Assembly (NCBI RefSeq): GCF_900465355.1
Contig: NZ_LS483254.1
Coordinates: forward strand, 1-64,000
Origin: Candidatus Bipolaricaulis anaerobius
GTDB lineage: Bacteria > Bipolaricaulota > Bipolaricaulia > Bipolaricaulales > Bipolaricaulaceae
Direction: 5' to 3'
Length of the DNA: 64,000 nucleotides
Position 1 is the stretch's first letter. Each line of letters begins with the position of its first letter. The notes under the pieces were generated by a model. That model was not told the origin of the DNA, did no database searches, and saw nothing but the letters and a program-made list of their open reading frames with translations. The position numbers and the translations under genes were made by a program. Below, in pieces: positions 27,602 through 29,916 of the stretch.

Positions 27602-27644
27602 GATGGCCCGATTCTAGCCAGGACCGAGCGGATGTCGCCCCCCT

Positions 27645-27895
27645 TCACCCGTGATCCCTCTCCCCCCTCACCTTTTGTTCCTCTCCCCCCTGCGGGGGGA
27701 GAGGCGAGGTGAGGGGGAGCCACCCTCCCCTTCCCCTCCCTCAAGGGAGGGGGGGAACGAGAGGCTCCTTCAAGGGAGGGAGAGAAAGACTTGGGAGGAG
27801 AGTTCTTCTTTTCCTCTCCCCCCTCACCTTTTGTTCCTCTCCCCCCTGCGGGGGGAGAGGCGAGGTGAGGGGGGGAGAGGGCAGGGGGGAATAGG
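27645..27895. repeat. Repeat cluster H
   Basis: Two CCCCTCACCTTTTGTTCC-CTCTCCCCCC-TGC-GGGGGGAGAGG units around a CCTCCCTCAAGGGAGGG unit. It lies upstream of the patatin gene and downstream of the first micro-peptide gene. Confidence 0.88.
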
Positions 27896-27897
27896 AA

Positions 27898-27919
27898 GGG
27901 GGCGGTTGCGACCGCCCCC
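27898..27919 (-). terminator. Terminator-like hairpin after micro-peptide gene 1
   Basis: GGGGGCGGT, loop, ACCGCCCCC: a nine-pair stem followed on the minus strand by TTCCTATT. It would end a transcript of about 180 bases from the promoter at 28089-28117. Confidence 0.6.
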
Positions 27920-27990
27920 TCTTCTTCACTTGGCCTCACCCGGACCTACCACCCGGGTGCCCACCTTCTGCTATACGGCATGCCCCAAGG

Positions 27991-28038
27991 TTACTTGGGC
28001 TTACCCGGCTGCGGCTTCGGCTTATCCTTCTTGTCCAT
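27991..28038 (-). CDS. Micro-peptide gene 1 (15 residues, Lys/Pro-rich)
   Basis: Encodes MDKKDKPKPQPGKPK. The ATG is preceded by CGAGGAGGTG, a perfect Shine-Dalgarno, and by a full promoter and leader that match those of a second unit at 28311-28355. The two peptides share MDKK, KPKP and GKPK while intervening DNA differs by substitutions and a 3-base indel that keeps the frame, which argues for coding selection. It is too short for standard gene calling. Function unknown: a basic peptide that could bind nucleic acid, membrane or ribosome, or a leader peptide. Confidence 0.65.
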   Translation of the reverse strand: MDKKDKPKPQPGKPK

Positions 28039-28062
28039 GGCCAGCACGGCACCTCCTCGTTG

Positions 28063-28140
28063 CTGCCCTACTGGGAGCAGCTGGGCGTACACTAGATCCA
28101 TTCTGATGGGAAGTCAATAGCCCGCGACGGGACATTCGTT
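28063..28140 (-). promoter_or_regulatory. Control region of micro-peptide gene 1
   Basis: On the minus strand from upstream: the element GGGACATTCGTT as read on the plus strand (28129-28140), 11 bases, TTGACT (28117-28112), 17 bp, TAGTGT (28094-28089), 8 bases, then a 6-pair hairpin CTGCTC-CCAGTA-GGGCAG (28080-28063) at the very 5' end of the transcript, followed by AACGAGGAGGTG. Confidence 0.65.
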
Positions 28141-28221
28141 ACATTCGCTGCCGGTCGCGCAGCCGGCGTCCGGGGACACACGGCTCATTAGGATCGCAAC
28201 ATTCCATCAGACAAAGGACGA

Positions 28222-28239
28222 GGGCAGGTTCCCCTGCCC
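28222..28239 (-). terminator. Terminator-like hairpin after micro-peptide gene 2
   Basis: GGGCAGG, loop, CCTGCCC, a seven-pair stem followed on the minus strand by TCGTCCTTTG. It would close a transcript of about 175 bases from the promoter at 28405-28433. Confidence 0.5.
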
Positions 28240-28310
28240 CCGCCATTTGCCTACGTGCTGCAGCGGTACATGCATTCTGGGAGTTCGCCCCCCAGAACGC
28301 ACAGCCCAAA

Positions 28311-28355
28311 CTACTTCTTCGGCTTGCCCGGCTTCGGCTTGGCCTTCTTGTCCAT
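28311..28355 (-). CDS. Micro-peptide gene 2 (14 residues, Lys/Pro-rich)
   Basis: Encodes MDKKAKPKPGKPKK with CGAGGAGGTG before the ATG. Paralog of micro-peptide gene 1 about 320 bases away on the same strand. A hairpin TTCTGGG...CCCAGAA follows 15 bases after the stop. Its promoter region is shared back to back with the TauE exporter gene. As with copy 1, conservation of promoter geometry, leader hairpin, ribosome site and peptide is the evidence; nothing is known of function. Confidence 0.65.
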   Translation of the reverse strand: MDKKAKPKPGKPKK

Positions 28356-28378
28356 GAGCAGCACGCACCTCCTCGTTA

Positions 28379-28458
28379 CTGCCCCGGTAGGAGCAGTTGA
28401 GCGGAGCATAGGACTGCTCGCGAAAAAAGTCAAACCCACGTTTTGGGACATTTGTCCC
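28379..28458 (-). promoter_or_regulatory. Control region of micro-peptide gene 2, with palindromic operator
   Basis: Plus-strand view: perfect palindrome TGGGACATTTGTCCCA (28444-28459), 11 bases, then on the minus strand TTGACT (28433-28428), 17 bp, TATGCT (28410-28405), 8 bases, and hairpin CTGCTC-CTACCG-GGGCAG (28396-28379). The distances equal those of copy 1. The palindrome also lies about 35-50 bases upstream of the -10 of the divergent tauE gene. Confidence 0.7.
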
Positions 28459-28492
28459 ATGCGCCGCCCGGGGCCCCTGTGGCGCCAAACGC

Positions 28493-29760: not shown

Positions 29761-29916
29761 TCACTCCTCCTCGGCCTCGTCGAGCGTCTCCTCAACCTTA
29801 TCCAACAGGTCTTCCAGGCGCTCCAGGGCCGATTCCAACTCCTCCTCGAGCTGGGAGAGCTCGGTGAGCATCGGCTTCAGCTTGTCCACGAGCTCTTTCT
29901 TCGTCACGTAGGCCAT
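29761..29916 (-). CDS. Small acidic coiled-coil protein
   Basis: 51 residues: MAYVTKKELVDKLKPMLTELSQLEEELESALERLEDLLDKVEETLDEAEEE. A basic N-terminus leads into one long acidic helix with heptad Leu spacing, probably a coiled-coil homodimer. ATG at 29916 is preferred over an upstream one because AAAGGAGGTG lies five bases before it. TACAAT lies at 29943-29938, and a ten-pair terminator follows the gene. No family recognised. Confidence 0.75.
   Translation of the reverse strand: MAYVTKKELVDKLKPMLTELSQLEEELESALERLEDLLDKVEETLDEAEEE

Follow-up and report, generated by a model that had tools for sequence, protein, structure and literature searches.

Two tandem micro-genes of Candidatus Bipolaricaulis anaerobius belong to a previously unannotated family encoding very short, strongly cationic peptides

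Two adjacent units on the minus strand of the Candidatus Bipolaricaulis anaerobius genome (one contig, 1.32 Mb) belong to a previously unannotated family of micro-genes that encode strongly cationic peptides of 13 to 23 residues. Members have their own promoter and RNA hairpin and usually their own terminator, and sequence comparison indicates that selection has maintained the family across a class of uncultured bacteria. The two units, here called A and B, lie in a window of 64,000 nucleotides (positions 1 to 64,000 of contig NZ_LS483254.1) and occupy the interval 27898-28459, bounded by the unit B terminator hairpin on one side and the unit A palindrome on the other. The family is a real one and is wider than these first two units: it has a second locus in the same genome, linked LysW-like genes in relatives and a class-wide spread. 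As the best explanation of these observations we propose, with a probability of about one half, a stand-alone micro-gene whose disordered polycationic peptide would act in trans by binding a polyanion.

The initial annotation described two minus-strand units that share a set of ordered elements at equal spacing. Reading the minus strand again, we found every named element base for base at its place and distance. The features are as follows.

28445..28458, minus strand: operator-like palindrome GGGACAAATGTCCC of unit A (sequence)
28405..28433, minus strand: promoter of unit A, TTGACT-17-TATGCT (sequence, pattern scan, kept in orthologues)
28378..28397, minus strand: 5′-terminal leader hairpin of unit A, CTGCTC/GGGCAG with loop CTACCG (covariation)
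28366..28374, minus strand: Shine-Dalgarno (SD) sequence of unit A, GAGGAGGTG (near-invariant within the genus)
28311..28355, minus strand: micro-ORF of unit A, MDKKAKPKPGKPKK, 14 aa, net charge +6 (sequence and orthologue comparison)
28271..28301, minus strand: 3′UTR hairpin of unit A (covaries in the genus, 7 of 13 pairs changed on both sides)
28254..28261, minus strand: 3′UTR element GCAGCACG of unit A, predicted to pair with CGTGCTGC (conserved, without covariation)
28217..28244, minus strand: terminator-like hairpin of unit A (pattern scan, covariation)
28129..28146, minus strand: operator-like element GAATGTAACGAATGTCCC of unit B (sequence, orthologue comparison)
28089..28117, minus strand: promoter of unit B, TTGACT-17-TAGTGT (sequence, orthologue comparison)
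28062..28081, minus strand: 5′-terminal leader hairpin of unit B, CTGCTC/GGGCAG with loop CCAGTA (covariation)
28050..28058, minus strand: SD sequence of unit B, GAGGAGGTG (near-invariant within the genus)
27991..28038, minus strand: micro-ORF of unit B, MDKKDKPKPQPGKPK, 15 aa, net charge +4 (5 synonymous and 0 nonsynonymous changes, 5 genomes)
27898..27919, minus strand: terminator-like hairpin of unit B (sequence, by eye and folding)

The units can be aligned over the operator, −35 element, 17-bp spacer, −10 element, following 8 nt, hairpin, SD and ORF. In unit A, the palindrome (28458-28445) is separated by 11 nt from TTGACT (28433-28428), which is followed after 17 nt by TATGCT (28410-28405) and, after a further 8 nt, by the stem; identical distances separate GAATGTAACGAATGTCCC (28146-28129), TTGACT (28117-28112), TAGTGT (28094-28089) and the stem in unit B. 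The GGGACATT(C/T)GT element that had been placed 11 bases before the −35 is the plus-strand reading of the operators GGGACAAATGTCCC and GAATGTAACGAATGTCCC. Between leader hairpin and ORF, both units carry the same element, AACGAGGAGGTG. The spacer between −35 and −10, previously noted as diverged, is among the least conserved stretches of the units when orthologues are compared. Both units end in a GC-rich hairpin that carries a short T tract, at 28244-28217 for A and 27919-27898 for B, in agreement with the terminators suggested earlier; the pattern scan detects the promoter and terminator of unit A, and those of unit B were recognized only by eye and folding. Around the units, GC-rich inverted repeats (CCTCTCCCCCCGCAGGGGGGAGAGG and similar) lie at 27640-27890, between unit B and a patatin gene, with similar ones elsewhere in the window. 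A small acidic protein, MAYVTKKELVDKLKPMLTELSQLEEELESALERLEDLLDKVEETLDEAEEE, is encoded on the minus strand at 29761-29916, and relatives of it are found near units in G006, G007 and G009.

In a DNA search of 60 relatives, followed by inspection of fetched loci, window-type units were found in 10 of the 11 other genomes of the genus, mostly in tandem; the search gave no window-type unit in G008, a 73% complete genome. Single units are present in three further genomes of the family (G015, G020 and G025). Absence from all close relatives, which would have spoken against the units, is thus not what the genomes show. Two paralogous lines, A and B, are each recognizable throughout the genus, which places the duplication before the origin of the genus, and their maintenance as separate orthologue lines rules out chance. 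The peptides encoded in the genus and family include MDKKDKPKPGKPKK, MDKKDKPKPQPGKPK, MKKDKPQPGKPKK, MKKDKPKPTKPKK, MKKDKPKPGTPKK, MDKKAKAAKPKPKKK, MLLKGKQEKPKKPGKPK and MLLQEKERKSPKPKQPGKPK. Among these short peptides the sequence drifts and the positive charge stays constant (net +4 to +7 in the window-type alignment). G001, G002 and G010 have an extra unit in which the promoter and leader of the other units precede an ORF for a Lys/Ala/Thr/Pro chain of 37 or 48 residues (MAAKAKTVKPKATAKAPAKAKAAAKPKTTAKAKAASKPKTTAKTTKKK). This unit adjoins unit A (L010:4927, L011:5480 and L018:5931), and its chain differs in length by in-frame repeats and has a net charge of +13 or +17. Different genomes have unlike genes downstream of window-type units. 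Control of the neighboring patatin gene by the units was considered and rejected: the gene has an inverted orientation or another position with respect to the units in G003, G004, G006 and G011, where the units persist.

Codon-level comparison supports the reading frames. In the core of the second-locus peptides described below (KEKKxxxPKQPKKPCG, counted over a minimal tree of codons), there are 23 synonymous and 7 nonsynonymous changes, against an expectation of 78% nonsynonymous (P = 3.4e−10), and the variable columns are distributed over codon positions 1, 2 and 3 as 2, 2 and 14. Window-type lines have 25 synonymous to 21 nonsynonymous changes (P = 6.6e−6), or 13 to 9 after removal of one poorly aligned group (P = 3.8e−4). 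Because changes were counted in a simple way, without a species tree, these P values are indicative; the 2/2/14 pattern is independent of the counting. ORF lengths differ by multiples of three. The micro-ORFs thus show the codon-level purifying selection across relatives by which translated small ORFs are recognized, and their translation is well supported by evolution. The leader stem provides a separate signal at the RNA level: 93.5% of its pairs are standard in 24 sequences, and 20 cells are changed on both sides compared with 8.1 in shuffled alignments, a signal that is lost in slid registers. Substitutions that destroy frame and stem alike, another pattern that would have spoken against the units, are likewise not what the relatives show. 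The orthologous A and B lines, the synonymous bias and the stem covariation agree with the earlier view that selection, rather than recent copying, accounts for the similarity of the two units.

A covariance-model search, as the initial annotation had recommended, extended the family well beyond the genus. The model R1, built from leader and ORF and run over 100 genomes of the class, identified one more locus in the source genome, unlinked to the window units (C1:757543-757646, up to 757658; L225 from 1544, G000), which encodes MKEKKADKPKQPKKPCGG. The second locus comprises a TATACT −10 element, leader hairpin and SD and has about 20 orthologues, some within the genus and some beyond it, with peptides such as MLMKEKKVEKPKQPKKPCGCC, MLLKEKKTEKPKQPKKPCGGC and MLFKEKKPESPKQPKKPCGK; in G005, the leader is kept and the peptide is deleted, a case that speaks against a peptide-based role. 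A second model, R2, was made from the second locus alone; its RNAalifold structure misses the leader hairpin, and R2 is therefore mainly a sequence model. It recovers the window units (E = 1.6e−5 and 2.6e−5), from which we conclude that the second locus and the window units are homologous.

Distant members have the same form. In G082, from another family of the class, three tandem units encode MCGGPKKPDKPKKPAK, MTKKPDKTKKPGKK and MCCGSKKPDKSKKPTKK, each with a TTGACT promoter, hairpin and SD, the first two also with an operator-like element ending in TGTCCC. Weaker model matches, read one at a time, add MGGPKKPKAPNKPKAK (G014), MGPKKPKDPKKPKGK (G016), MLLEKKGPKKPETPKKPAGK and MLKEKKTPKKPETPKKPSGGCCG (G069), and MLKEKKTPKKPETPKKPAGGGCG and MLLKKKGGAKKPAGGKKK (G040); MLMPMKKAKKKKTAKKKK in G058, which has no hairpin, is a possible member. 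Weak matches within longer genes (G019, G023, G025, G029, G033, G062, G057, G095 and others) were dismissed on inspection. In the source genome, further members were sought with models and patterns. In all, members are known from at least three families within the class, and many genomes keep two to four paralogues. The sequence data thus support the family itself, the homology of its loci, selection on the coding frame, the leader hairpin and, as described next, the recurrence of the operator.

The word GGGACRAATGTCC has 40 sites in the 100 genomes of the class, compared with 1 for the reversed control. Its sole site in the source genome is that of unit A, between the unit and a divergent TauE gene, where the palindrome lies ~54 bp before the predicted start of unit A and ~45 bp upstream of the TACAAT of the TauE gene (28496). 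Elsewhere, GGGACRAATGTCC precedes a LysW-like gene and other conserved promoters. A dimeric transcription factor is likely to act at the GGGACRAATGTCC operator, and, because the fuller operator word recurs at other promoters across the class, this regulator would not be specific to the micro-genes. At L288, L290, L291, L293 and L301, GGGACRAATGTCC lies between divergent genes together with a conserved TTGAACCGATTC-type element, and at L308 and L312 it adjoins histidine-kinase-like genes. The shorter pattern GGGAC-N4-GTCCC was rejected as a regulon of the source genome (RAAT core in only 1 of 7 sites).

We propose that the sigma-70-type promoter of each unit, under its palindromic operator, gives rise to a short mRNA that would start with a stable hairpin and continue with a strong ribosome-binding site, one Lys/Pro peptide of 13 to 23 residues and, usually, a terminator. 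Both transcription and translation of the units are probable. Promoter, 5′ hairpin and strong SD together may ensure high peptide output under a palindrome-binding regulator, with the hairpin perhaps serving mRNA stability or output. The conserved product would be the peptide, acting in trans; separate terminators and unlike downstream genes argue for this mode of action. Predicted to be disordered, the peptide may bind DNA, RNA, the ribosome or polyphosphate by its charge. Sequence drift at constant positive charge, together with growth into a tail like that of histone H1, makes the case for a role of charge; composition and analogy point to binding of nucleic acid or another polyanion as the likeliest role. 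The PKQPKKPCG core is more exact than charge alone needs; together with the Cys residues of the second branch, it may point to a specific partner or to a function for Cys. Of the three functions offered in the initial annotation, an intracellular basic peptide fits best, a dual-function RNA is possible for unit A, and an antimicrobial function is unsupported. More tentatively, we suggest that the family consists of class-wide, stand-alone polycations of 13 to 23 residues, produced from co-regulated micro-genes in two to four copies, which may condense or chaperone nucleic acids and which in one lineage may have grown by in-frame repeats into an H1-like tail.

Alternatively, the units could produce structured, dual-function regulatory RNAs in which the peptide is secondary. 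Unit A suggests this most directly: its 195-nt RNA folds far better than shuffled sequences (z = −6.3), and both its 3′UTR hairpin and its terminator covary, the latter with 3 of 11 pairs changed on both sides. The partner of GCAGCACG, CGTGCTGC, lies between SD and ATG (within 28358-28366), so the 3′UTR would be able to pair next to the start codon, and such a conserved fold exceeds the needs of a plain mRNA. However, the 3′UTR fold is confined to orthologues of unit A and absent from unit B and other branches; the fold of unit B RNA is unexceptional (z = −0.8), and some ORFs, in G003, G011 and G020, have a terminator-like hairpin within a few tens of bases of their 3′ end. The family-wide parts are therefore the leader hairpin, SD and ORF, the last kept at the codon level, and we consider a primarily RNA-based function rather unlikely.

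The peptides might instead be leader peptides (uORFs) that act in cis as sensors of lysine or lysyl-tRNA to control a downstream gene, originally a LysW-like one, and that persist in the window's genus as relics after loss of the regulated gene. This proposal draws on relatives in which the peptide ORF is followed by a small acidic zinc-ribbon gene of the LysW-like family (PF21344), namely G015, G025, G026, G030, G032 and G036. In G030 and G036, the stop codon of the peptide overlaps the likely SD/start region of the LysW-like gene, an overlap that suggests translational coupling. The ORFs are also rich in Lys codons, and at the second locus an Ig-like lipoprotein gene, the same one in 20 of 20 orthologous loci, is found downstream, so that a role in cis may apply there. 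Against it, the 12 genomes of the genus and G020 have no LysW-like gene, yet their peptides remain, duplicated and under purifying selection; the genes downstream of window-type units are unlike one another; a terminator/antiterminator switch was not apparent, the consensus fold of unit A showing one stable structure; and a lysine tail of 37 to 48 residues is unnecessary for sensing. An attenuator role is accordingly disfavored, and the uORF scenario as a whole appears unlikely. LysW proper is a carrier of lysine biosynthesis. The linked paralogues, co-encoded with the peptide in several relatives, are absent from the window's genus and lack the C-terminal EDWGE of true LysW. A group of LysW-like paralogues (L182-L189, L192-L194) with acidic C termini (DEDEF, DDLY) and no EDWGE is often found beside TauE and TrmH-like methylase genes.

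A dedicated partnership with one protein, for example the LysW-like zinc ribbon or the second-locus lipoprotein, or a role of the Cys forms (PCGGC, MCGG, MCCG) as metal or thiol peptides, seems distinctly unlikely. The Glu/Asp-rich character of the LysW-like proteins co-encoded in the six genomes, the exact PKQPKKPCG core and the constant lipoprotein synteny would fit such a role, but many peptide-bearing genomes have no LysW-like genes, the window members have neither Cys nor a lipoprotein neighbor, and no lipoprotein relative was found at the G069 and G040 loci (L246, L247). Exported antimicrobials or signals are highly improbable: the peptides are small, cationic and tandemly duplicated, but they are very hydrophilic and proline-rich for a membrane-active helix, they show no signal sequence, leader/core division, dedicated exporter or constant transporter, non-exhaustive neighbor profiling at the window and second loci revealed no RiPP-type modifying enzyme, the neighbors differ among members, and the copies are conserved across the class without the fast turnover usual in bacteriocins.

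The units thus belong to a gene family with strong support whose members approach the lower size limit for genes and fall below the size thresholds of ordinary gene annotation, in uncultured bacteria. Their regular anatomy (operator, promoter, 5′ hairpin, SD, micro-ORF and terminator) can serve as a search model, as it did here. With this family one can ask directly whether selection maintains gene products that are no more than very short polycations tolerant of sequence change; in one lineage, such a peptide appears to have lengthened in frame to resemble a histone H1 tail. If the peptides do condense or chaperone nucleic acids, they would be among the smallest gene-encoded chromatin- or RNA-binding proteins.

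In accordance with the earlier impression, no described family matching the micro-genes was found in Rfam, plasmids, viral contigs or the literature: Rfam had no relevant covariance-model match for the window or second loci, plasmid tblastn and viral-contig searches with second-locus peptides as queries gave no match, and the literature search returned no report of small proteins in Bipolaricaulota. Several known systems are nevertheless comparable in part. Stable 5′-terminal mRNA stem-loops of the ompA type are a known kind of element, to which the hairpin at the predicted 5′ end, directly before a strong SD, is similar; the stem of this family covaries, its sequence and loop are free, and an effect on stability is putative here. 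Type I toxin-antitoxin systems differ in that their peptides are hydrophobic, whereas those of the present family are hydrophilic and cationic; a pattern scan of the antisense strand of the units found no promoter-like site. Attenuator leader peptides of the trpL and hisL type are similar in size, position near the promoter, enrichment of one amino acid and a downstream terminator. In contrast to them, the micro-genes mostly have no biosynthetic operon downstream and no visible antiterminator, occur as tandem paralogues and are under purifying selection on the peptide; a regulated gene immediately downstream is missing from the window and genus units and is found, in part, only in the LysW-linked relatives.

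In Sinorhizobium meliloti, the short RNA rnTrpL encodes the 14-residue peptide peTrpL close to its 5′ end, and both the RNA and the trans-acting peptide have regulatory roles (PMC7298713). The present peptides are of similar size, and the proposed action in trans of so small a product is common to both. However, peTrpL is a genuine attenuator uORF of the trp type, which contains Trp codons and precedes trpE(G) (PMC7298713), whereas the window family is mostly without a regulated gene, has several stand-alone copies and is of Lys/Pro composition. In large smORF catalogues, the minimum ORF length is 30 nt (PMC11364881), so individual members of the family may be listed there. Finally, AlgP of Pseudomonas carries a histone H1-like KPAA-repeat tail of 195 aa on a helical domain (PMC9239181). 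Tails of this type are, like our peptides, of low complexity in Lys, Ala and Pro, disordered and net positive, and the version of 37 to 48 residues in G001, G002 and G010 has a similar composition; a 38-aa query had no match in Pfam. The likeness to Lys/Ala/Pro-rich, highly positive H1-like nucleoid proteins is one of composition and is close only in these long variants; the window family has no folded domain, and its usual peptide is 13 to 23 residues long.
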